From Pirellulales bacterium (lineage in GTDB: Bacteria; Planctomycetota; Planctomycetia; Pirellulales; JADZDJ01), in NCBI GenBank assembly GCA_020851115.1, contig JADZDJ010000038.1:1-53298 (forward strand): a DNA stretch of 53,298 bases, read 5' to 3'. Shown in pieces: positions 1,546-21,623 of this stretch (the stretch's first letter is position 1; every line of letters begins with the position of its first letter). The notes beneath the pieces were generated by a model that did not search any database, was not told where the DNA came from, and was given only the letters and a program-made list of their open reading frames with translations. The position numbers and the translations under genes were made by a program.

Positions 1546-3192
1546 CTACGAGTGTTGAAATGCCTGTCGCTGTCTTGTGTCTGGCAGCGAAATCGGATCG
1601 ACTTGCGTGAGTCTCCCCTTTGGGCCATTAAAAAACTTCGTATGCAATTGACCCCAGTCGATGTTGAGCGTTCCGCCTCGGTCTTCGTGCTGCCGCTGCC
1701 AGTTCATCAATAGGTCGAGGCAGGCGTGATCGATATAGTCGACGCGGCTGATATCGACGTGCAATGCGCAGCCAGGGGGCAAATTCTCGAACGTCTCGGC
1801 CAGCTTCGGCAATCGCAAGAAGGTAACCGCTCCTCCCAGCCGCAAGCGACATTCATTCGCCGCCGGATCGTGGCGGAGGTCGATTTTGACGTGCGAAAAG
1901 GTGTACAACAGCTTGGCCGACGACATGCCGATGCCGATTAGGACGCCTGTGAGCAGATCGGCCAGGACAATCAATACCAGCGTCGTCAGATAGATCAGAA
2001 ACTCGCTCTTACCATAAGCCAGCAAGCTCTTGGCGGCGCGTGGAGCCACCAATTTGTAACCCGTATAAACCAAAATAGCGCCCAAGCACGCTTTCGGAAT
2101 TAACTGCAAGGCGTGTGGCAATGTGCTGACAAACAGCAGGATCCAGCAACCGTGTAGTACAGCCGACCAGCGCGACTTCGCGCCAGCATCGATGTTGGCC
2201 GTGCTGCGCACAATCACTCCGGTCATGGGCAACGCCGACACGCAGCCACAAAGTACGTTGCCGATCCCTTGGGCCATCAGCTCACGATCATATTTTGCTC
2301 TCGGCCCTTGGTGGAGGCGATCGGTGGCGGTCACACTCAACAGCGTTTCTGCGCTTGCGACGAATCCAAAAGTGATTCCGGCCAGCAGAATCTCCCCCAA
2401 GGTAGCGCCCTTATCGCCGATCAGCCGCCAACTTTCCCACGTCGGCAGCTTGATGGCCTGCAGCAGGTTGCCTGGCAATTCGACGAACTTAATCGCGAGA
2501 TTTTGCACGTCGGCCAGCAGCGTAGCAGCAACGACGGCCACGAGCGGCGCGGGAATTATCCGCAGCCTTTTCGGCGCGGCGAGCTTCCAGCCTGCGAGAA
2601 TGATAATTGTGAGCACACCGATTCGCGCAGCGTAATGGTGCGTCGTATCGTCGCCGGGCACAACCCCTTTCCAAAACGACTCCGGGATCGACGCAAGATT
2701 CTCGATACCGCTGGCGCGCGGGCTATCGTCGACCATGACGTGAAACTGGCTCGCCAGGATGAGTACGCCAATGCCAGCTAGCATTCCTTGCACGACGGCA
2801 GGCGAAACGGCGCGAAACCATTGTCCCAGCCGCAGCGCGCCGGCGATCAACTGTACGAGCCCCGCAATCACGACGACAAACCCCAAAGCTTCCAAGCCGA
2901 ACTCATGGACGAGCTGATAAACCAGCACGCTCAAACCGGCGGCTGGGCCGCTTACTTGCAGCGGCGCGCCGGCGAGCACCCCTACCACCAATCCGCCGAT
3001 GACGCCGGTGATCAGGCCGGCCGCGATCGGCGCATTCGAGGCCACGGCGATGCCCATACACAAAGGCAACGCCACAAGAAAGACGACAATCGAGGCCATG
3101 AAGTCGTGCAAGAGCGACTTGCGCGACGGCAACAGCCCACCGTTGTGTCGCAATATCGCTTTCGCATTGTCAATCGGAATCTGCTTCACCAT
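1546..3192 (-). CDS. SulP family anion transporter with STAS domain (likely bicarbonate or sulfate)
   Basis: A 548-residue inner-membrane protein of the SulP/SLC26 family. Residues about 25-430 are a run of hydrophobic helices that include the family stretch FLVALPLCMGIAVASNAPI near the N-terminus, and a GPAAGLSVLV segment. The last 110 residues or so form a STAS domain (VDISRVDYIDHACLDLL). An AAGGGTG motif sits 9 bases before the ATG. The next gene upstream on the same strand, 181 bases away, is a beta-carbonic anhydrase. SulP proteins paired with carbonic anhydrases are generally taken to carry bicarbonate (BicA-like), so inorganic carbon is the favoured substrate. Sulfate cannot be excluded from sequence alone. 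Confidence 0.88.
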   Translation of the reverse strand: MVKQIPIDNAKAILRHNGGLLPSRKSLLHDFMASIVVFLVALPLCMGIAVASNAPIAAGLITGVIGGLVVGVLAGAPLQVSGPAAGLSVLVYQLVHEFGLEALGFVVVIAGLVQLIAGALRLGQWFRAVSPAVVQGMLAGIGVLILASQFHVMVDDSPRASGIENLASIPESFWKGVVPGDDTTHHYAARIGVLTIIILAGWKLAAPKRLRIIPAPLVAVVAATLLADVQNLAIKFVELPGNLLQAIKLPTWESWRLIGDKGATLGEILLAGITFGFVASAETLLSVTATDRLHQGPRAKYDRELMAQGIGNVLCGCVSALPMTGVIVRSTANIDAGAKSRWSAVLHGCWILLFVSTLPHALQLIPKACLGAILVYTGYKLVAPRAAKSLLAYGKSEFLIYLTTLVLIVLADLLTGVLIGIGMSSAKLLYTFSHVKIDLRHDPAANECRLRLGGAVTFLRLPKLAETFENLPPGCALHVDISRVDYIDHACLDLLMNWQRQHEDRGGTLNIDWGQLHTKFFNGPKGRLTQVDPISLPDTRQRQAFQHS

Positions 3193-3373: not shown

Positions 3374-4048
3374 TCAGATCGCAACGGCATCGAGTCGCCG
3401 CCCGTTGACCGGTGTCGGCTGGCATTCGCCCACCGACGTGAACTGGCCGACTTCGGGGCTATAAGCGAACACTTGCCCGGTCTCGAGCTTGTAGACCCAA
3501 GCATGAATCTGCAGGTTGCCGCGCGACGTTCGCACCGCAACCGCCGGATGAGTGCGCAAGTTTTCCGCTTGACAGAGCACATTCTCTTGGACGGCGATAT
3601 TCAAACGCTGCTCGTTCGTCAGCGTCTTGTAATTTTCCTCGACAATACGCCGCGCGCTTTCGCCGTGGGCCAGCCAGCCGGCGACGCTGGGCATGGTCTT
3701 CAGCCCCTCCTTGTTAAGCAGCCCTTCGACGGCGCCGCAGCGCGAATGACCGCAGACGATAATCGAATCGACATTCAATTGCGTGACGGCGTATTCGACG
3801 GCCGCCGCCGTCGCGCCATCGGCGGTATTGGGCGTAAAGGGCGGAACAATGTTGCCAATGTTCCGCAGGATGAACAGGTCGCCCGGTTTGGTTTGCGTGA
3901 TGAGATTGGGGTTTACGCGGGAATCGGAGCAGGTAATGAACAGCACCTTGGGGCTTTGCCCCTCGGCCAACTGTTCGAAAAATGTCCGCTCACCGGCAAA
4001 AATTTGATGCTGAAATTGATGAATTCCGGATATAAGTTCTTGTAACAT
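3374..4048 (-). CDS. Beta-class carbonic anhydrase
   Basis: A 224-residue enzyme that interconverts CO2 and bicarbonate in the cytoplasm. The zinc ligands and catalytic dyad are plain: C40-S-D42-S-R44 in ITCSDSRVNP, then H101 and C104 in CGHSRCGAVEG. These are the Cys-His-Cys ligands and the Asp/Arg pair of beta-carbonic anhydrases. The open frame runs further upstream, but the start at 4048 (MLQELISGI) is chosen because homologous sequence begins there and AGAGAAG precedes it at normal spacing. It is transcribed toward the SulP transporter, so the two probably supply or balance bicarbonate together. Confidence 0.93.
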   Translation of the reverse strand: MLQELISGIHQFQHQIFAGERTFFEQLAEGQSPKVLFITCSDSRVNPNLITQTKPGDLFILRNIGNIVPPFTPNTADGATAAAVEYAVTQLNVDSIIVCGHSRCGAVEGLLNKEGLKTMPSVAGWLAHGESARRIVEENYKTLTNEQRLNIAVQENVLCQAENLRTHPAVAVRTSRGNLQIHAWVYKLETGQVFAYSPEVGQFTSVGECQPTPVNGRRLDAVAI

Positions 4049-4061
4049 GTGAATCTTCTCT

Positions 4062-4241
4062 CTATTGGGTGATACCGTGCGCAAAGGATCGCGCACCGTC
4101 GGCCATTGAAATGAATGCGCTCGTGCAAACGGCGAACGTCGCCAAAAACCAGTGCCTCGCATGGCGGGCAGCCACGAGCAAACAGATGCCGTCCGGCGAC
4201 GGCGCAATGCCGATCAACAGCGCAGCGGCAGAGAGAAGCAT
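4062..4241 (-). CDS. Possible small hydrophobic protein, 59 residues
   Basis: A short frame starting ATG at 4241 and ending TAG 13 bases before the carbonic anhydrase start. The product is hydrophobic with two possible membrane segments (MLLSAAALLIGIAPSP, then FLATFAVCTSAFISM). I do not recognise a family. The position just ahead of carbonic anhydrase would fit a small first gene of that operon, but no convincing ribosome binding site is visible and it could be a chance frame or the end of a decayed membrane-protein gene. Confidence 0.3.
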   Translation of the reverse strand: MLLSAAALLIGIAPSPDGICLLVAARHARHWFLATFAVCTSAFISMADGARSFAHGITQ

Positions 4242-12833: not shown

Positions 12834-13892
12834 ATGTCCTCAGCAATCCGCCTCACCCAATTCGCCAAACGTGCCGGTTGCGCTGCCAAGCAGCCCCCTG
12901 GCTATCTGCTTTCTCTATTGGACATGCTGCCGGAAATCACCGACCCAAATGTGATCATCGGCAATGCCACCGCCGATGACGCCGGGGTCTATCAACTGAC
13001 CGACGATTTAGCGCTCGTCCTTACGACCGACTTTTTTACACCGATCGTCGATCGCCCCTACGATTTCGGCGCGATCGCCGCCGCGAATGCCCTTAGCGAT
13101 GTATACGCGATGGGTGGCACGCCGATCGCGGCCTTGAGCATCGTCGGCTTTCCCGATGCAGTGTTGCCGCCGGAAGTGCTCGTCGAAATCTTGCGCGGAG
13201 CAAGCGAAAAAGCCGCCGAGGCGGGCATTGCGATTGTTGGCGGGCATACAATCAAATCGGAAGAACCGATTTTTGGATTGGCAGTCGTCGGCAAAGTTTT
13301 GCCGCAACGTGTTTTGTCGAATGCCGGCGCCAAGCACGGCGATGCGCTTATTCTCACGAAGCCACTGGGGCTGGGAATCATTACGACGGCCGCCAAGAAC
13401 AGTGAAGACCATCTCGGTGCAATAGACGAAGCGATTCGCATCATGACAACGCTGAATCGCGTTGCCGGGGAAGAAATTGCCCGGAGCGGGGCGCACGCTC
13501 TTACCGATGTCACCGGCTTTGGCCTGCTCGGCCATTTGCGGAACATGGTTGTGGCGAGCAACGTATGCGCGCGGGTTTATCTCGACCGCATACCTGTGCT
13601 GTCTGCAGCTAGAGAGTATGTGAAGCATGGAATTTCACCCGGCGGAACACACGCCAACCATCGATTTTTAGCGGATTGGGTGAACTATGCCGACGGCGTA
13701 ACCAAAGCCGATCAGTTGATTTTGTCAGATGCACAAACATCCGGCGGGCTTTTGGCGGCGGCGGCGCCTGAAAAATCTGAGGCGTTGGTCGCGGCGCTCC
13801 GTTCCCGCGGCGTAAGAGAGGCAATAACGATTGGGAGAATTGAATCGGGACTGCCGAGCCGCATTTTTGTCGATCGCTCCAAATCGGAATAA
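12834..13892 (+). CDS. selD: Selenide, water dikinase (selenophosphate synthetase)
   Basis: A 352-residue enzyme that makes selenophosphate from selenide and ATP, the selenium donor for selenocysteine and selenouridine. The N-terminal active-site segment reads AGCAAKQPP: Cys16 is the redox/Se-handling residue (Cys form, not Sec) and Lys19 the catalytic Lys. Family blocks follow: TTDFFTPIVDRPYDFG, AANALSDVYAMGG, IVGGHTIKSEEP, ALTDVTGFGLLGHL and LILSDAQTSGGLL. The ribosome binding site is not obvious. It is the first gene of a plus-strand group that goes on to fwdD and fwdB, the latter with an in-frame TGA. The context implies that it serves selenoprotein synthesis. Confidence 0.97.
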   Translation: MSSAIRLTQFAKRAGCAAKQPPGYLLSLLDMLPEITDPNVIIGNATADDAGVYQLTDDLALVLTTDFFTPIVDRPYDFGAIAAANALSDVYAMGGTPIAALSIVGFPDAVLPPEVLVEILRGASEKAAEAGIAIVGGHTIKSEEPIFGLAVVGKVLPQRVLSNAGAKHGDALILTKPLGLGIITTAAKNSEDHLGAIDEAIRIMTTLNRVAGEEIARSGAHALTDVTGFGLLGHLRNMVVASNVCARVYLDRIPVLSAAREYVKHGISPGGTHANHRFLADWVNYADGVTKADQLILSDAQTSGGLLAAAAPEKSEALVAALRSRGVREAITIGRIESGLPSRIFVDRSKSE

Positions 13893-14003: not shown

Positions 14004-14348
14004 ATGTCCCACAAACGATTTATTCTCAACTCATCACGCTCCTCTAAACAGGGAGCGTTGATCAACGTGGGAAAAGAATCGAAGGAATATCAGGATTTGA
14101 CGAACTCGATGACGATGGCTGAAGAAGATATGGCGGAAGTTGGCCTTGTCGAGGGACAATTGGCCGTGGTCCGAACGCAGTTTGGCGAAGCGGCGTTCAA
14201 GTGCCAGCCTGGCAAAGTACCGCTCGGCATGATTTTCGTCCCCTATGGCCCACCGACCTGCAAACTGATGGGTGGCGATACGGATGGAACTGGCATGCCC
14301 ACATCAAAGGGTTGGGAAGTAGAAGTCGTGCCACAGCAAGTCGGGTAA
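14004..14348 (+). CDS. fwdD: Formylmethanofuran dehydrogenase subunit D-like, molybdopterin-dinucleotide-binding protein
   Basis: A 114-residue protein resembling FwdD/FmdD, the small subunit that completes the molybdopterin guanine dinucleotide site of archaeal formylmethanofuran dehydrogenase. Supporting sequence: FILNSSRSSKQGALINVGK near the N-terminus, AEVGLVEGQLAVVRTQFG in the beta-barrel, PLGMIFVPYGPPTCKLMG, and the closing GDTDGTGMPTSKG that typifies this subunit. It lies 111 bases after selD and 400 bases before fwdB on the same strand. Its presence argues that the complex binds a Mo- or W-pterin cofactor, because the proteobacterial Fhc formyltransferase/hydrolase complex has no such redox role. 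Confidence 0.88.
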   Translation: MSHKRFILNSSRSSKQGALINVGKESKEYQDLTNSMTMAEEDMAEVGLVEGQLAVVRTQFGEAAFKCQPGKVPLGMIFVPYGPPTCKLMGGDTDGTGMPTSKGWEVEVVPQQVG

Positions 14349-14407: not shown

Positions 14408-14575
14408 ATGCCACAAGAACTCAATCGCAATGATTTGACTGGTCCCGAAACCCCGCATTTCTCACTACCACTGATCGAGAATGCGGCCGATGTGGTTGCA
14501 TGGACAGAGATTGAGGCCGGCCGCTACATGCCCCGGCGGGTACGCGGAAGTTACCACGGCCGGGCCTTGGGGTGA
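14408..14575 (+). CDS. Possible 55-residue protein within the fwd gene group
   Basis: A short frame between fwdD and fwdB beginning MPQELNRNDLTG and ending YMPRRVRGSYHGRALG. It has a sensible sequence: an acidic middle (ENAADVVAWTEIEAGR) and a basic glycine/arginine tail, with no low-complexity signature. No strong ribosome binding site is visible. I do not recognise a family. Being in the same direction and inside the group, it may be a small accessory or regulatory protein of the enzyme complex. Confidence 0.5.
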   Translation: MPQELNRNDLTGPETPHFSLPLIENAADVVAWTEIEAGRYMPRRVRGSYHGRALG

Positions 14576-14751: not shown

Positions 14752-16089
14752 ATGCTCTCCATCATCAATAATGCCACCTGCACTTTCTGTGGCTGCGTTT
14801 GCGACGATATCCAACTGCACCATGATGAAGTTCGCATCCACAAAGCGGATCGGGCTTGTGTCTTGGGGACAGCATGGTTTCTGAATCACACCGCCGAGAA
14901 GAAGCATCCGGCCGCGCTCGTCGATGGACGCGAGGCAACGCTCGATGAAGCCATTCGCGCCGCCGCTCGTTTTCTGCACGAAGCCCATATGCCTCTCGTC
15001 TACGGAATGAGCAATACAACCTGCGAAGCACAAAAAGAATGTGCAGCGCTGGCCGACCAACTCGGCGGGCTGCTCGACAGTCACACCTCGTTGTGACACG
15101 GACCAACTGAGATCGCTGCCCAGTTGGGTGGCAAGGTAACGTGTACGCTCGGCGAAGTGAAGCAGCGAGCGGATTTCATCGTCTACTGGGGCGGAAACCC
15201 CGCCGAGTGCCATCCGCGGCATTTCACCAAGTACACGATCATGCAGAAGAGCAAGTTTCTGCCGCGTGGCCGCAAAGACCGTACGATGGTGCTGGTGGAC
15301 ATTCGCGAGACGAAGAGCGCCAAGGCCGCTGATATTTTTCTTCAAGTCCGCCCTGGCAAAGATTTCGAGCTGATCACGATATTGCGGGCATTGGTCAAAG
15401 GCCGGCGAGTGACCGATGAGGCCATCGCCGAAACCGGTATTCCGCGAGATACGCTCGAAGATCTAATTCGCCGGATGAAAGCCGCCAAATTCGGCTGTAT
15501 GTTCTTCGGCATGGGCCTGTCGATGACGCGCGGCAAGCATATGAATAGTGCTGCGCTACTGACGCTCGCTGCCGAGATGAATGCATTCACCAAGTTCGTC
15601 GCCATGCCCATGCGTGGCCACGGCAATGTAACCGGAGCCGACGTGATCATGCGTTGGCAGACGGGCTTCCCATTCGGCATTTCGTTCAGCCGCGGCTACC
15701 CGAGGTATAACCCCGGCGAGTTTTCGACGGTCGATATATTGGTCCGCGGCGACTGCGACGCCGCCTTCATCATTGGTGCTGACCCTGGTGGAACGATGCC
15801 GCAACCAGCAATCGATCACTTGAAGCGCATTCCGACAATCGTGCTCGACCCACACATCACGCATACCAGCCGATTGGCTCGCGTTCATATTACGACCGCG
15901 CCACAAGGCATTGCCGCGCCGGGAACGGCCTATCGAATGGACGAGATTCCCCTACCGCTGAAGCCCGCCTTGAAGTCACCTTATCCGACCGATGAAGAGG
16001 TCGTCCGCCGCATCAATGAAGCGATTGCCGAATTGCCGTTCTGGATTCCTGACGACGGTCGGCCGCAAATGATCATGACCACCGGATAA
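14752..16089 (+). CDS. fwdB: Formylmethanofuran dehydrogenase subunit B, predicted selenoprotein (in-frame TGA = Sec115)
   Basis: Catalytic subunit of a formylmethanofuran dehydrogenase-type enzyme, 445 residues if TGA at 15094-15096 is read as selenocysteine. The N-terminus has Fe-S ligands C10-x2-C13-x3-C17 and C36 (TCTFCGCVCDD; RACVLG). Before the TGA is NTTCEAQKECAALADQLGG then DSHTSL. After it comes HGPTEIAAQLGG, then RADFIVYWGGNPAECHPRHF, all in the same frame. Methanogen FwdB has Mo/W-ligating Cys (Sec in some species) followed by His exactly here, at about residue 118. The later FSRGYPRYNPGEF block carries the active-site Arg region. No frameshift or other stop is seen. The alternative, a nonsense-mutated gene, is less likely given selD upstream and full conservation beyond the TGA. 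Confidence 0.92.
15094..15132 (+). promoter_or_regulatory. Candidate bacterial SECIS element just after the fwdB TGA
   Basis: Two mutually exclusive hairpins follow the TGA. (a) CCAACTG (15103-15109) pairs perfectly with CAGTTGG (15121-15127), with an 11-base loop whose second base is G. (b) GCTGCCC (15115-15121) pairs with GGGTGGC (15126-15132), including two G-U pairs, around the loop AGTT. Hairpin (b) starts its loop 25 bases after the TGA, within the spacing usual for bacterial SECIS elements, again with G in the first two loop bases. Either could recruit SelB. The choice is inference and no folding energy was computed. Confidence 0.6.
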
Positions 16090-16311
16090 ACGTTCAGCGG
16101 CAAGCGATGGGGAAAGAATCGGATTGCATGGGCAAGCGAAATCTATCCGTACCGAATGACAGGTTAGCACTGAGAGTTATTGGCTCAATTGCACCGCAGA
16201 CGGACGCGCCTCGCTTCTCCGTGCCACCCATTTACAGATTACCGCGGTCAATAGAAACTATCGGGATACCTGAGAAATTGTCTACGAATCTATTTTGGTG
16301 AAGGCGGGGCA

Positions 16312-17946
16312 ATGCTTCGGATCACCGGCGGAAAAATATACGACCCCGCCAACGGCATTAATGGGAAGATCAAGGATCTCCACATCGACGACACGGGGAA
16401 GTTCGTCGAAGTGGTCGCTGGCGGCCGAACGATCGACGCTAGCGGAATGATCGTTTTTCCAGGCGGCGTTGATGTCCATACGCACATCGCCGGCGGGGCC
16501 ATCAATTTTGCCAGGGCGATGACGCCGGAAGATCACCGCCGCACGCAGGCATTCATTCGCACGAAGTCTCGCCGCAGCGGGCTGGGCGGCATGGCTCCCA
16601 CCACATTCGCCACTGGCTATCTCTACGCCGGCATGGGCTGGACGACCGTCAATGAAGCAGCCGTCCCAGTGCTGTCGGCCCGTCACACGCACGAAGAGTT
16701 GGCCGACATCCCGATCGTCGATAAGTCCACGCTCACCCTGATGGCTAACAACGAGATCATGCTGGATCAGTTGGAGAAGGGAGAGTACGAGCGTGCCAAG
16801 CAAGTCGTCGCCTGGTATCTTTGGGCATCGAAATCGTACGGCCTGAAGGCGGTCAATCCTGGAGGTGTGACGGCATGGAAGTGGGGCAAGGACGCCAAAC
16901 AACTCACTTCACCAATCGCCGGTTACAATTCGCTGACGCCCGGGAGTATCGTCACGCAACTAGCGCGCATATGCGACGAGCTTGGCCTGCCTCACCCGAT
17001 GCACCTGCATTGCAACAACTTAGGCGCGCCGGGGAACATCTCCACGACGCTCGACACGCTGAAACATCTCGAAGGACATAGGGCCCACATTGCACATTCA
17101 CAGTATCACGCCTACGGCGGCGACGGCTGGGATACCATGTGTTCCGAAACTGTTCAGCTCGCTGAATACTTCAACACGCACCCCACGATCACCACCGATG
17201 CCGGCGCAGTGATTTTTGGAGACACGGTCACGATTACCGCCGACGGCCCCTGGCAGCATTTGCTTTATGAGTTGACCGGGCGCAAATGGGGCAACCTCGA
17301 TGTCGAAAACGAAACCGGATGTGGCATCGTGCCCTACACCTATCGCCCCAGCAATTTGGTCAATGCGGTGCAGTGGGCGGCCGGTTTGGAGTTACTGCTG
17401 CTCATTCGCAGCCCTTGGCAGGTGTTTCTATCGACGGATCACCCCAACGGAGGGTGCTTCTGGCGCTATCCAGAAATTATTGAAATGCTAATGTCCGCCG
17501 ACGTTCGCAATGAGAGCCTTAAGAAGCTGCCCGATCGGATCAAAGGCAAGATCACGCTGCCCGAGATCAACCGCGAATACACGCTTTACGAAATCGCCAC
17601 CTCAATGTCGGCTGGCCCTGCACGAGCGCTTGGGCTGACGCAGAAGGGCAACTTGGGAATCGGCGCGGATGCGGATCTGGTGATCTACGAAGAAGACAAG
17701 AACGTGGCGCGCATGTTCGGACATCCCCGTTACGTGATCAAGGCCGGCGAAATCGTGATTGAGGAAGGGGATATTCGGGAAGCGCCGCAAGGGCGCGAGT
17801 TCCTCGTGAAGCCCGCCTATGATGCCGAGACCGATGAGTTTATTCGCCCGCTGTTTGAAGATTGCTACACGATGTCGTTCGAGAATTATCCCGTCGAATT
17901 CGAACGAATCGAACACGCGGAAATACACGAGTGCCGTCAGCCGTAA
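16312..17946 (+). CDS. fwdA: Formylmethanofuran dehydrogenase subunit A (amidohydrolase-type)
   Basis: A 544-residue member of the amidohydrolase superfamily. In the archaeal complex, FwdA hydrolyses or forms the formyl group on the C1 carrier using a dinuclear zinc site. The metal-binding residues are visible: H56 and H58 (DVHTHIAGG), Lys179 (GLKAVNPGG) at the position of the carboxylated lysine, H231/H233 (MHLHCNN), and Asp376 (STDHPNGG). The length fits the family. GGCGGGG precedes the ATG. Here it would pass formate to or from the selenocysteine site of FwdB through an internal channel, as in the archaeal complex. It lies 222 bases downstream of fwdB. Confidence 0.95.
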   Translation: MLRITGGKIYDPANGINGKIKDLHIDDTGKFVEVVAGGRTIDASGMIVFPGGVDVHTHIAGGAINFARAMTPEDHRRTQAFIRTKSRRSGLGGMAPTTFATGYLYAGMGWTTVNEAAVPVLSARHTHEELADIPIVDKSTLTLMANNEIMLDQLEKGEYERAKQVVAWYLWASKSYGLKAVNPGGVTAWKWGKDAKQLTSPIAGYNSLTPGSIVTQLARICDELGLPHPMHLHCNNLGAPGNISTTLDTLKHLEGHRAHIAHSQYHAYGGDGWDTMCSETVQLAEYFNTHPTITTDAGAVIFGDTVTITADGPWQHLLYELTGRKWGNLDVENETGCGIVPYTYRPSNLVNAVQWAAGLELLLLIRSPWQVFLSTDHPNGGCFWRYPEIIEMLMSADVRNESLKKLPDRIKGKITLPEINREYTLYEIATSMSAGPARALGLTQKGNLGIGADADLVIYEEDKNVARMFGHPRYVIKAGEIVIEEGDIREAPQGREFLVKPAYDAETDEFIRPLFEDCYTMSFENYPVEFERIEHAEIHECRQP

Positions 17947-18062
17947 TCCCATGGGGCAGTATTCCTGCCCTGCCAACACAACGTGGTTGCCCGCGGAGTA
18001 GGCATTTTCGCTAACTAGAACAACGCCCAATGACAGGCAAGTGTGCCTGCCCCACTTCAGCA

Positions 18063-18875
18063 ATGCCGGTCGTCTTTCACCTTAAGCTGCAGCCGACTGT
18101 TCCGCTCGAAGCGGAAGTCCTCTCGCCCGATGTGATAGCGGATTTGGCGTACGCCGAGATCTGCAAGCTCACCGTCTATCATGGCAAGCGGCAACTGCCA
18201 TTAAGCGAATTTTTCGACGTGGAAGGCGAACGCGACGAAAACCTCGTGCTCCACGGAAACATGCACAAGGTTCGCTGGGTCGGCCGGGCCATGTCACGCG
18301 GCAGCATCACGGTCCACGGCTCGGTGGGAATGCATTTAGGGGCGTACATGCGCGCCGGCCGCATTGTCGTCTACGGCAATGCAGGGGATTGGGTCGGAGC
18401 CGAAATGAAGAACGGCTTGATTCATGTGCAAGGAAATGCAGGCGGACAAATCGGCGCGGCCTACCGCGGTTCGCTCGCCGGAATGAAGAATGGCACGATC
18501 ATCGTCAATGGCACAGCCGGCCTCGAAGTCGGCATGCGGATGCGCCGTGGCACAATTGTCGTTGGCGGCGCTGTGAAAGATTTTGCCGGATTGCAAATGA
18601 AAGGGGGGACGATTGTCTTGAAGGATGGCGCCGAGATCCGCACCGGGGCCTGGATGAATCGCGGGACAATCATATCCCTCAAGCCATTGCAAATGATGCC
18701 CACATTTGTCCACTCGACGACAGCAACGCCCCCTTTTCTTTCGCACCTGGCCCGGCACCTCGAGAATTTCGGCGTTGATCTGCCTGTTGCGGCGACGGCC
18801 GGAATCTATCGCGTTTACGCAGGCGATATGTCGGTTTCCGATAAAGGCGAGATTCTGGTGTGGCAGCCCAGTTAA
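18063..18875 (+). CDS. fwdC: Formylmethanofuran dehydrogenase subunit C
   Basis: A 270-residue structural subunit of the formylmethanofuran dehydrogenase/formyltransferase-hydrolase complex. The centre (about 75-205) is a run of right-handed beta-helix repeats of the form GxxVGxxMxxGxIxVxGxAG, the GXGXG fold shared with the C-terminal domain of glutamate synthase. The start at 18063 (MPVVFHLKLQ) is preferred over one 33 bases upstream because the extra residues (TGKCACPTS) look non-coding. A formyltransferase gene (ftr/fhcD) is not found after it in this window. Confidence 0.94.
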   Translation: MPVVFHLKLQPTVPLEAEVLSPDVIADLAYAEICKLTVYHGKRQLPLSEFFDVEGERDENLVLHGNMHKVRWVGRAMSRGSITVHGSVGMHLGAYMRAGRIVVYGNAGDWVGAEMKNGLIHVQGNAGGQIGAAYRGSLAGMKNGTIIVNGTAGLEVGMRMRRGTIVVGGAVKDFAGLQMKGGTIVLKDGAEIRTGAWMNRGTIISLKPLQMMPTFVHSTTATPPFLSHLARHLENFGVDLPVAATAGIYRVYAGDMSVSDKGEILVWQPS

Positions 18876-19206
18876 TCCGACTACTGCTTTCAGATTCTCG
18901 GAGCTGCGTTCGATCGGCCCATGCGAAAAAGCGACCTTCATCAGTGTCGCCCACAGCGTATTCCTGGGGAAATCTTGACCACTTCGATCAGCGGTTTACC
19001 ACTGCTATCACACCACCATTGCAAGAACCAAAATGCTCAACCGGGAAGCAATGGTCCTAGCCAATCCACTTCAATCATGCGAATTATTACAATTTCTTAA
19101 TATTTTGCGTAGCTTGCGTTAAGAAATCGCAAGCGCGCACGATTTATTGTAGCCGGGCGTATTGACGGGCGTATTGAAATGCCCAAGCAAAACATCCGTA
19201 AATCGC
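18876..19206. other. Intergenic region between fwdC and the ECF sigma gene
   Basis: About 330 bases without a recognisable gene. The last third (19080-19160) is AT-rich and contains the interlocked inverted repeats listed separately. It probably carries the promoter of the sigma-factor operon. Confidence 0.55.
19092..19134 (+). promoter_or_regulatory. Interlocked inverted repeats upstream of the ECF sigma gene
   Basis: ATTTCTTAA (19092-19100) is the perfect inverse of TTAAGAAAT (19119-19127). That second arm is also exactly the loop of another perfect hairpin, GCTTGCG (19112-19118) with CGCAAGC (19128-19134). In RNA this could be an H-type pseudoknot or two competing hairpins. In DNA it could be an operator. 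It lies 73 bases upstream of the sigma-factor ATG. Confidence 0.5.
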
Positions 19207-19746
19207 ATGCATAACCAGTCCGTGTCGACTCCGCTGCCGTCTCACGACCATTTTGCCGAGCTGTTTGCTCAGTATCAGCGGCGTATTTACTCGTACATTT
19301 CGACGCTGATTATCAATCGCGACGATGTCGACGACATTTTCCAGCAAACTTGTGTGGTGCTGTGGAAAAAGTGGAACCAATACGATCCTCAGGCGGATTT
19401 TGCCAACTGGGGATGTGGGATTGCACGAAACGAAGTGCGCAATTATCTGCGCAAGAAACATGGCAGTTCGATTCAATTCAGCGACCAAGTCCTCGACAGT
19501 CTTTCGGACGAACATATTGAGGTTGGTCGAGAAATGGAAGCGCGTCATCGGGCCTTGTCTGATTGTTTGGATAAGCTCCCGCCGCCGCAGCGGGAGTTGG
19601 TTGAGCGCTGCTATTCAGACGAAGGTTCAATTCGTTCGATTGCCAACCGAATGCAGATAGCGCCCACTACTTTGTATATGAAGTTACACCGATTGCGCAG
19701 AGCCCTGTTGGATTGCATATCGCTCGCCCTGCGTAGTGAACCATAG
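19207..19746 (+). CDS. ECF RNA polymerase sigma factor, Rhodopirellula/Verrucomicrobium type
   Basis: A 179-residue sigma-70 family factor with region 2 (DDVDDIFQQTCVVLWKKW, then FANWGCGIARNEVRNYLR) and region 4 (LPPPQRELVERCY, then IRSIANRMQIAPTTLYMKLHR) but no region 3, the layout of ECF factors. The start at 19207 (MHNQSVSTP) is chosen because the upstream TTG extension has no support. It is followed after 5 bases by a FecR-like membrane protein, a pairing typical of planctomycetes, where the second protein is the presumed anti-sigma or signal receptor. The targets are probably the surface-protein genes downstream. Confidence 0.92.
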   Translation: MHNQSVSTPLPSHDHFAELFAQYQRRIYSYISTLIINRDDVDDIFQQTCVVLWKKWNQYDPQADFANWGCGIARNEVRNYLRKKHGSSIQFSDQVLDSLSDEHIEVGREMEARHRALSDCLDKLPPPQRELVERCYSDEGSIRSIANRMQIAPTTLYMKLHRLRRALLDCISLALRSEP

Positions 19747-19751
19747 AGTTT

Positions 19752-21623
19752 ATGATTGAATCCACCAATACTTGTACGTCAGACGAAGGCCGCTTTTGGC
19801 GGCTTGTAGGCGTCGTCCATTCCGGCAGCGCGACGAGCGACGAGCAGCGCGAGTTGGAAGAGTTGCTTCAGTCGCATTCTGTTTTGCGCCGACGATATGT
19901 TGAGCATCAGATTCTCGATGCGGAATTGCGCTGGCGTTATCGTTCAACCAAGCCAATCGTCCTGTCGGGTGATTCTACGCAGCTCGGCGGCGGCTTGGCT
20001 GCTGATTCGTCGGCATTGCCGCTGTGGCATAAACCAGCCGGCGGCGATTCGCCGCTTTCGCAGGAGCTTCAGTGCAGCGCCGACGATCAGACGAAGAGGG
20101 AGCTTGTCGCTGATGCGCATCGACCGTTGCAAAAGAAAGTGCGGGCTGCGGCCAACTTGCGCGAACGGGAGGAAAGGCCGACAATTTTATTTTGGAAATT
20201 TGCGGGGATTGCATCGTCTGCGTTTGCGGCAGCTTTGGTCTTGTGGCTAACATTCAGCGGGTCGCGATCACCAAACAACCCGGCTGTTGAGTTGGCTAGT
20301 CGTGATCGGGCAAACGCAACACCACAGATTAAATTGGCGGTTGACGTCACGAATCGCCCCACATACGTGGCTCGGATCGTGCGAGCTTCCAGCGATCTCG
20401 CCTGGGGAAATGCTACTGCGCCGCGAGATTTCCTGCTTCGTGTGATGAAGGATGAGAGGCTATGCATTGAATCGGGAGTTGTTGAATTAGAGTTTGATTG
20501 CGGTGCGAAGATTGTTTTGACTGGCCCCGCTACTTTTACCCCAACCGGTGCAGGCGATGCTCACTTAGAGTCGGGGCGTCTAACCGGCGAGGTTTCAAAG
20601 GGCAATTTTCGGCTCTTAACGCCCAATGCCGAGGTGATCGATTTGGGCACTTCGTTTGGGGTACTCGCGGATGCTGCGGTGGGAACTGAGGTTGTGGTGT
20701 TCGGCGGCAGGGTGCAGGTCAAGTCACATCCAGATTCAAAAGCCAAGCATCTGCTGGATATGACCGAAGGCATGGCAGCGCGAATTCGGACGGATGGAAC
20801 GGCTGAATATGGCGTGGATTCGGAAGCGGGTTCACTTGTCCGGTCGGTGCCGGCCGCCGCAACAAAAAGTCGACGCGAAGTCAGTCTGGTTGACTTGATC
20901 GGTGGCGGTGATGGGTTTGGCTCGTGTCTTGCAGGCGCGATCGATCCGACCAGCGGCGCGAACGACGTGCTTGGCGAGCCCGGGGTCCGGCAAGGAAATG
21001 ACAAATATCATTCGGTCGATTGGCATCCGATTATCGACGGCATTTTTGTCCCACCGGCCTCGGGCGGCCGAGTCCAAGCAGACTCACTCGGCGGGACGAT
21101 TCTCCTGCCGCCGACCAATGGTCTGACGTGGGGACCGCTTTGGGCCAGACGCTGGGATAAATCCCTGGAATGGACGAGCGGCAGCACGACCGACTATTGG
21201 TCGAACGACACGCTTAAAGGCGTGATTACTCGACTCAAGAAGTCGCATTTTGGCGTCGTTGGGATGCATGCAAACACGGCAGTGACGCTCGATTTGCGCG
21301 CCTTGCAGTTGCTGCAGCGTGCGCCGGGCGCTGAGTTTCACACAACGGTAACCAATCTCGACAATTCGGTCGAGCGAGACATACCCGCCGATGTGGCCTT
21401 AGATCGAGCGGCCGATTTCACAATCTATGTGGATGGCATCTCGCGGTTTTCGCGAGTCGACCTGCGCCGCGTCGACGGCGACATCGACGTCGTCGTGAAG
21501 ATTCGAGCTAGCGATCGTTTCTTGACGATCGTGTCGTCGGATTCAACAGGCGAATCCGCCTACGATCATTTGGTATTGATCGATCCTGTCATTCTACTTC
21601 AACGAAAGGAGCTAGAACAGTAA
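19752..21623 (+). CDS. FecR-like transmembrane regulator with C-terminal NPCBM-like domain
   Basis: A 623-residue protein. The N-terminal 60 residues are a cytoplasmic helical segment (SDEQRELEELLQSHSVLRRRYVEHQ) suited to binding the sigma factor. A single membrane helix lies at about 155-172 (FAGIASSAFAAALVLWLTF). Next comes a FecR-type beta domain (VVELEFDCGAKIVLTGPATF, then VIDLGTSFGVL, then VVVFGGRVQV). The C-terminal about 150 residues (HANTAVTLDLRAL, then TIYVDGISRFSR) resemble an NPCBM-like carbohydrate-binding module. The arrangement suggests an extracytoplasmic glycan sensor that controls the adjacent sigma factor. That role is inferred. Confidence 0.82.
   Translation: MIESTNTCTSDEGRFWRLVGVVHSGSATSDEQRELEELLQSHSVLRRRYVEHQILDAELRWRYRSTKPIVLSGDSTQLGGGLAADSSALPLWHKPAGGDSPLSQELQCSADDQTKRELVADAHRPLQKKVRAAANLREREERPTILFWKFAGIASSAFAAALVLWLTFSGSRSPNNPAVELASRDRANATPQIKLAVDVTNRPTYVARIVRASSDLAWGNATAPRDFLLRVMKDERLCIESGVVELEFDCGAKIVLTGPATFTPTGAGDAHLESGRLTGEVSKGNFRLLTPNAEVIDLGTSFGVLADAAVGTEVVVFGGRVQVKSHPDSKAKHLLDMTEGMAARIRTDGTAEYGVDSEAGSLVRSVPAAATKSRREVSLVDLIGGGDGFGSCLAGAIDPTSGANDVLGEPGVRQGNDKYHSVDWHPIIDGIFVPPASGGRVQADSLGGTILLPPTNGLTWGPLWARRWDKSLEWTSGSTTDYWSNDTLKGVITRLKKSHFGVVGMHANTAVTLDLRALQLLQRAPGAEFHTTVTNLDNSVERDIPADVALDRAADFTIYVDGISRFSRVDLRRVDGDIDVVVKIRASDRFLTIVSSDSTGESAYDHLVLIDPVILLQRKELEQ

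Follow-up and report, generated by a model that had tools for sequence, protein, structure and literature searches.

The window analysed here, a stretch of 53,298 nucleotides from contig C38 of a Pirellulales bacterium, carries a gene for the catalytic subunit of a formylmethanofuran dehydrogenase, fwdB, whose reading frame contains a TGA codon. This raises the question of whether the codon ends the protein or is read as an amino acid and, in the latter case, what kind of enzyme the gene would encode.

The in-frame TGA of fwdB

The fwdB frame (14752..16089, plus strand) has 446 codons, and its translation revealed a single internal stop, TGA at codon 115 (15094..15096, plus strand), ahead of the final TAA. 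The next codon specifies His116, the frame goes on as HGPTEIAAQ, and the 445-aa protein obtained by reading through the TGA matched TIGR03129 at 499.4 bits over residues 7-424 (cut-off 327.8). This bears out the initial annotation, in which TGA115 was described as the only stop of the frame and conserved FwdB sequence as resuming in phase behind it, with the histidine next. The same annotation had placed the TGA at the position of the metal-ligating cysteine and had proposed an alignment with archaeal FwdB and planctomycete homologues. When these were aligned, codon 115 fell in the column of the ligand, opposite Cys118 of the solved tungsten enzyme 5t5i_B; the column holds Cys in 8rja_B, in 9sw6_J and in part of the relatives, and X in 9sfi_Q. 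The X at this site is probably Sec.

The distribution of the codon was assessed in a first census of 57 genomes, i.e., the source genome and 56 relatives. The FwdB family gave some match at E <= 0.001 in 54 of them and a match over the cut-off in 33, and ten genomes, the source genome included, had a full-length match with exactly one internal TGA, which lay in one and the same alignment column in all ten. In an alignment of 50 FwdB sequences (30 loci from the census and 20 chosen from among the listed matches), 10 had TGA in this column, 24 had Cys and 16 had other residues; of the 12 loci without TGA that ranked next by score, 11 had Cys (TGC or TGT) and one had Ala. A second, named collection comprised the best 80 of 371 relatives, and TGA was present at the ligand column in all 80 contigs, one of which is the complete chromosome CP036526.1 (K23_9, which we take to be a cultured isolate). 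Five of the 80 repeat sequences found among the ten, and the two sets together amount to 90 rows and 85 distinct sequences. Going by their record titles, these best 80 of 371 relatives include 78 planctomycetes (Pirellulaceae, Rhodopirellula, Rubripirellula, Fuerstiella, Gemmataceae, one Phycisphaeraceae and others), one entry called only "bacterium" and one assigned to Acidobacteria. In an even, phylum-wide sample of 294 genomes, a FwdB match at E <= 1e-80 was detected in 19 genomes, and it was TGA-bearing in four of these. Three contigs with a Sec-type fwdB (L164, L134 and L157) are titled Acidobacteria or Kuenenia stuttgartiensis; these may be assemblies of other planctomycetes that were misbinned or mislabelled.

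The TGA codon in fwdB is far from chance. An in-frame UGA that faces Cys in the homologues and is flanked by conserved protein on both sides is the pattern of a bacterial selenoprotein. A sequencing error, a decaying gene or a strain-specific nonsense mutation, which the initial annotation had named as grounds for abandoning its proposal, could be suspected in an assembly of 5.2 Mb that is split into 304 contigs and estimated to be 98.8% complete and 3.5% contaminated. However, the codon recurs in 85 distinct sequences, one of them from a complete chromosome, and the protein is strongly conserved on either side of it. A TGA common to so many sequences is not the result of misreading or of a nonsense mutation confined to one strain, and we give such explanations practically no credence.

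The TGA could also be a true stop separating an N-terminal product of 114 aa from a second one of 321 aa translated from a downstream TTG, as in public predictions, and 84 of the 120 homologues listed are indeed 308-325 aa long and begin past the UGA. However, the internal stop was always TGA and always at the metal-ligand column, with neither TAA nor TAG in the listed over-cut-off matches (such matches exist in 33 of the 57 and in 15 of the 294 genomes). Furthermore, related full-length genes read straight through this point with Cys, the active site would be divided between the two products, and the hairpin stretch described below is conserved in its codons. We therefore regard the production of two proteins as very unlikely. 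Annotation programs truncate Sec proteins (PMC10100899). Because so many of the listed homologues start behind the UGA, the catalytic residue would escape surveys that rely on predicted proteins. That the fwdB TGA is read as selenocysteine is, in our opinion, very likely.

Selenocysteine genes and the predicted hairpin

The initial annotation had made its proposal dependent on the presence of selA, selB and tRNA-Sec in the genome, and all three were found. The selA gene (527.7 bits, cut-off 267.9) adjoins selB (278.3 bits, cut-off 242.25) on contig C158, and the tRNA-Sec, detected at 72.8 bits (gathering score 47), was called by ARAGORN as tRNA-SeC with the anticodon TCA. The selD gene for selenide water dikinase (selenophosphate synthetase) is located in the window itself (12834..13892, plus strand; TIGR00476 at 377.8 bits, cut-off 125), and the source genome thus possesses selA, selB, selC and selD. 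The N-terminal stretch of SelD reads AGCAAK, and its Cys marks the Cys form and not the Sec form of the enzyme. The position of selD next to the fwd genes is striking in the window, yet it was rejected as a general feature, because such linkage was rare (2 of 66 named loci with enough flank, from the best 80 of 371 relatives).

The tRNA-Sec was also present in both further genomes tested, K23_9 (72.9 bits) and KatS3mg111 (77.9 bits). In the census, selA exceeded the cut-off in 24 of the 57 genomes, i.e., in 8 of the 10 TGA-bearing genomes and in 16 of the other 47; the two TGA genomes in which it did not are G029 (no match, 81% complete) and G032 (19.5 bits, 83% complete). The 16 genomes with selA but without a TGA-bearing fwdB are compatible with the occurrence of other selenoproteins. 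FdhA was considered as the selenoprotein to which the source genome might owe the retention of its Sec genes and was dismissed, since the FDH-like matches found there were without TGA. Together with the TGA shared by 85 distinct sequences, the presence of selA, selB and tRNA-Sec supports the decoding of the codon as Sec.

In principle, the TGA could instead be read as Cys, Trp or Gly by suppression or in a changed code, and Cys or Gly does occupy the column in some relatives. However, when the source genome was searched for six conserved families, the matches contained no other in-frame TGA, a tRNA-Sec with the TCA anticodon accompanies selA and selB, and a conserved hairpin is correctly placed downstream of the codon. 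Such recoding thus appears extremely unlikely.

The bacterial SECIS element is a hairpin situated directly 3' of the UGA within the coding region, its apical loop being about 16-37 nt away and having a G early in the loop. When RNAalifold was applied to the 90 rows (85 distinct), it predicted a single helix, pairing columns 31-37 with columns 42-48, which correspond to 15115..15132 of the window (plus strand). The predicted hairpin has a 7-bp stem and an AGUU loop (15122-15125) that begins 25 nt past the UGA, inside the gene, in agreement with the bacterial rule. With 10 rows, extra helices were predicted around the hairpin, and with 90 rows the hairpin alone was left.

Standard pairs filled 98.5% of the 595 hairpin cells of the 85 distinct rows in comparison to 28-57% in slid-partner controls, and only 51.9% of the equal columns were paired in 11 Cys orthologues, indicating that the hairpin is not kept there. 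All pairs were intact in 80 of the 90 rows and a single pair was broken in the other 10, an end pair in six and an inner pair in four, K23_9 being among the four. No hairpin pair was altered on both sides in the aligned rows; as the changes were all one-sided, covariation gives no proof of the hairpin, and we relied on codon choice and on the Cys control instead. Shuffled 3' letters, used as another control for the pairing, gave no contrast. Upon single-sequence folding, 47 nt were no more stable than their shuffled versions (z -0.27), but the 29-nt core was (z -2.53).

The codons of the hairpin stretch were markedly biased in the best 80 of 371 relatives, although these counts come from related rows and are not independent draws: Leu+10 was TTG in 80/80 named genes (20.4% of the Leu codons elsewhere in them), Gln+9 was CAG in 80/80 (70% elsewhere), Ala+7 and Ala+8 were GCC or GCT, i.e., ended in a pyrimidine, in 158/160 (53% elsewhere), and Gly+11 was GGT in 53/80 (17% elsewhere). 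At Leu-1, which precedes the UGA and lies outside the hairpin, four codons were used, yet this position was also TTG-rich (52/80). Judged from the sequences, codon choice is stronger support for the predicted hairpin than the pairing counts. No SECIS family of Rfam was matched either at gathering scores in the whole window or by E-values within 15040-15200, and three weak Rfam hits were taken for chance. If the hairpin acts as a bacterial SECIS element, SelB carrying Sec-tRNA would bind it in the fwdB mRNA and place Sec at the UGA.

The operon and the redox reading of the enzyme

The genes selD, fwdD, a small ORF, fwdB, fwdA and fwdC follow each other on the plus strand. The 114-aa product of fwdD (14004..14348), the molybdopterin-dinucleotide-binding subunit, was recognised by PF01568 (33.9 bits, cut-off 26.8); its score against NF042908 FwdD was 68.1 bits, under the cut-off of 175. 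The amidohydrolase subunit gene fwdA (16312..17946) matched TIGR03121 at 665.5 bits (cut-off 392.75), and its top solved match was 8rja_A (483.6 bits). FwdA aligns lengthwise with the solved FwdA chains and contains the likely metal-site motifs. The GXGXG subunit gene fwdC (18030..18875) matched TIGR03122 at 263.4 bits (cut-off 130.65). Directly downstream of fwdC lie two genes (19162-21623) that we take to be ECF-sigma-like and, behind it, FecR-like. Elsewhere in the window, a gene presumably encoding a SulP-type transporter adjoins one that looks carbonic-anhydrase-like (1546-3192 and 3374-4207), possibly serving bicarbonate uptake.

Among the named Sec loci with enough flank, all from the best 80 of 371 relatives, fwdD was present in 71/74, fwdA in 60/66 and fwdC in 49/59, and ftr was located in the upstream flank of 24/66. 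In the source genome, ftr (392.1 bits) and mch (391.7 bits) both reside on contig C115, which points to an H4MPT-linked C1 pathway. The same contig carries a gene for a RimK-family ligase, whose top NCBIfam match, MptN, was below the model cut-off.

The small ORF (14408..14575, plus strand) encodes 55 aa with the C-terminal end GRYMPRRVRGSYHGRALG, and this C-terminus follows the pattern GRxMPRRxRGSxxGRALG. The motif was found in 59 of the 80 named Sec loci (best 80 of 371) and in 7 of the 10 Sec loci of the sampled genomes, two sets that overlap, and it was absent from the 10 Cys-type fwd loci and from 21 other fwdB loci. In the scanned sets the 55-aa protein thus goes with the Sec-type operon. 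It matched no Pfam or NCBIfam family, and a protein search returned 244 homologues; among the 120 listed, those with names were hypothetical proteins save one with an odd label. It might, as a guess, be an extra subunit of the complex. We did not meet this protein in the open-access literature searched for related work.

A MobA-like nucleotidyltransferase gene was observed between fwdA and fwdC in 5 of the 10 Cys-type loci, which are the five in which both fwdA and fwdC were found (L087, 6274-6969, with equivalents in L079, L080, L085 and L086). The MobA domain was checked in two Cys-type loci and one Sec locus (L107), and the MobA models scored under their cut-offs. The presence of such a gene in fwd operons fits an enzyme with a guanine-dinucleotide molybdopterin. 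Beyond the Cys-type operon of L080, two ORFs (15226-17106) had no Pfam or NCBIfam family match.

Not only TGA115 but also His116, Arg288 and Cys10, Cys13, Cys17 and Cys36 align with the solved chains. We take the four Cys to bind a [4Fe-4S] cluster and codon 115 to provide the metal ligand, and assume the customary roles for His116 and Arg288. A signature was defined from 15 positions besides the ligand, namely the four cluster Cys, His116-Gly-Pro, Arg288-Gly-His and five more. It was identical in 22/22 Sec rows of the tree set, in 80/80 named loci (best 80 of 371) and in 4/4 solved chains, which have Cys or X as the ligand, but only in 30/43 Cys rows and in 1/19 rows with neither Cys nor Sec. 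The structural model of FwdB resembled solved archaeal FwdB (TM 0.88-0.89, 35-41% identity) more than FhcB of the redox-silent complex (TM 0.66-0.67, 22% identity). The model has a mean pLDDT of 78, but around the active site the values drop below 50 (residues 112-130 and 290-323), so it was used for the overall fold only.

FwdA and FwdB of the source are homologous by sequence to those of the solved Fwd/Fmd complexes 5t5i (Methanothermobacter), 8rja (Ethanoperedens) and 7bkb (Methanospirillum). Archaeal Fwd contains the ferredoxins FwdF/FwdG, and the archaeal SECIS is located in the untranslated region. In contrast, the hairpin predicted here is inside the gene, as is usual in bacteria, and a ferredoxin gene was not detected nearby: a motif scan of the window revealed no ORF with a four-Cys cluster motif, and among the 80 named loci and their flanks (best 80 of 371) none had an ORF with two such motifs, a single-motif ORF being present in 7/80. 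The ferredoxin-type subunit of the archaeal complex was thus not detected in the window or in the flanks of these 80 loci.

The Fhc operon is without fwdD, unlike the source operon, in which FwdD is encoded. FhcABCD of Methylorubrum extorquens (6s6y) shares with the source operon the related A and B subunits and the tie to Ftr and tetrahydromethanopterin. FhcB, however, is a shortened FwdB without the metal ligand, having 355-356 residues in the structure and no Mo/W cofactor (PMC10100899), whereas the source FwdB has 445 residues and the TGA at the ligand position. Sec formate dehydrogenases (FdhA) belong to the same superfamily as the source FwdB and share the UHxP motif with it (PMC13188914), but they form a separate family; the source FwdB scored only 60.6 bits against TIGR01591.

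The complex could nevertheless contain Sec and still function chiefly in the manner of Fhc, as a formyltransferase/hydrolase without redox activity in which FwdB is a scaffold. This would agree with the lack of an electron-carrying subunit near the operon, in the window and the flanks, with the existence of close relatives that have Ser, Thr or Gly instead of a metal ligand, and with the linkage of ftr in part of the loci. However, the metal-site signature is unchanged in every Sec row and named locus, FwdD, which presumably completes the cofactor site, is nearly always present, the fold is much nearer to FwdB than to FhcB, and a scaffold would presumably not account for the cost of dedicated Sec genes. 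An Fhc-like function is thus unlikely. The initial annotation had argued for a redox-active enzyme distinct from Fhc, and this was upheld with regard to the signature, the presence of FwdD and the fold, but a subunit to carry the electrons was not detected in the neighbourhood of the operon. The redox activity of FwdB, which we infer, is well supported by these features.

Taken together, we consider it probable that the fwdB TGA encodes selenocysteine directed by the downstream predicted hairpin, and that the selenium ligates the Mo/W of a redox-active formylmethanofuran dehydrogenase. FwdB, together with FwdD, would in this case house a Mo/W-bis-MGD site plus a single [4Fe-4S] cluster and convert CO2 to formate or the reverse. 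Attaching formate to a methanofuran-type carrier, or releasing it, would fall to FwdA, and the formyl group would reach tetrahydromethanopterin by way of Ftr and Mch. The direction is probably oxidative, from the formyl group to CO2. The enzyme would stand between CO2/formate and the methanopterin C1 pathway, the role of which in planctomycetes is unsettled. If it is redox-active, these bacteria could exchange electrons at the level of the formyl group, a reaction beyond the better-known Fhc complex of bacteria. The TGA gene on the complete chromosome of K23_9 makes the Sec prediction testable.

History of the ligand site and earlier reports

The phylogeny of the ligand site was inspected in a tree of 88 rows, in which the relatives were metagenome proteins from the best 120 matches listed and the outgroup consisted of four rows. 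The 22 Sec rows formed one branch (97/93), joined by three rows without the residue (Tyr, Arg and a deletion). Its sister group (99/84) had Ser in four rows, Thr in three, Gly in one and Cys in one, and the two together (100/99) were placed among bacterial Cys forms, apart from the four solved chains. This suggests that Sec was gained in bacteria and then lost mostly without a return to Cys, although the direction is not proven, the outgroup has four rows only and the program warned of long branches. A Cys codon is one base away from TGA, yet the suggested losses would mostly have been to other residues. The end branches were long (0.56-0.64) in the non-Sec rows P0121, P0122, P0133 and P0136, in comparison to 0.03-0.23 in Sec rows, and short (0.07-0.14) in the non-Sec rows P0123, P0129 and P0135. 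The close full-length relatives P0121-P0123, P0127-P0130, P0133, P0135, P0136, P0175 and P0220 have Ser, Thr, Gly, Arg, Tyr or a gap at the site, except for P0127, which has Cys. P0123 (Tyr) was not used as evidence, because a gap next to the site may reflect a gene-prediction artefact, and the 613-aa fusion-like record P0138 was left out of the tree.

Bacterial members of FwdB came from archaea by transfer according to PMC10100899, and in PMC7331816 Sec is argued to be the ancestral ligand of the whole family, which counts against a bacterial gain. It is conceivable, though rather doubtful, that bacterial FwdB acquired Sec separately from archaea, that the 55-aa protein is a new subunit replacing the archaeal ferredoxin subunits, and that Sec was subsequently lost, usually to Ser, Thr or Gly, yielding redox-silent forms. 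If so, the conversion of Fwd to Fhc would be caught in the act. A clade with Sec, Cys and ligand-free members lends itself to testing how metal chemistry is lost from an enzyme.

The idea of a Sec-containing FwdB in a planctomycete is not new, as it is already in print: in 2016, Sec FmdB was predicted in the planctomycete P2 (Rhodopirellula) and in a Lake Washington fosmid (PMC4807772). That locus and the source locus are alike in having Sec in the same subunit, a fmdD-fmdB-fmdA-fmdC operon, bacterial Sec genes and a Cys form in the same genome. PMC4807772 also reported Gly forms in three planctomycetes, and its methods list SECIS presence as a criterion. That work apparently dealt with one genome, a fosmid and phylogeny, whereas the present analysis concerned the hairpin, 85 distinct sequences, the neighbouring genes, the small ORF and the Ser/Thr sister clade. 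The codon-level conservation of the hairpin and the Ser/Thr sister clade were not found in the open-access literature outside the supplement of PMC4807772, where a SECIS may be given. FwdB is described as a selenoprotein of methanogens in PMC13188914, the main text of which leaves planctomycetes unmentioned, and PMC1088965 counts formylmethanofuran dehydrogenase among the selenoproteins undetected in the Sargasso Sea set.

The source genome has a second FwdB as well, which is of the Cys type and is encoded next to an aldehyde dehydrogenase gene on contig C262 (L047, 4543-5883). It deviates at Gly289 and His290 and is thus not a plain selenium-free twin of the Sec FwdB.
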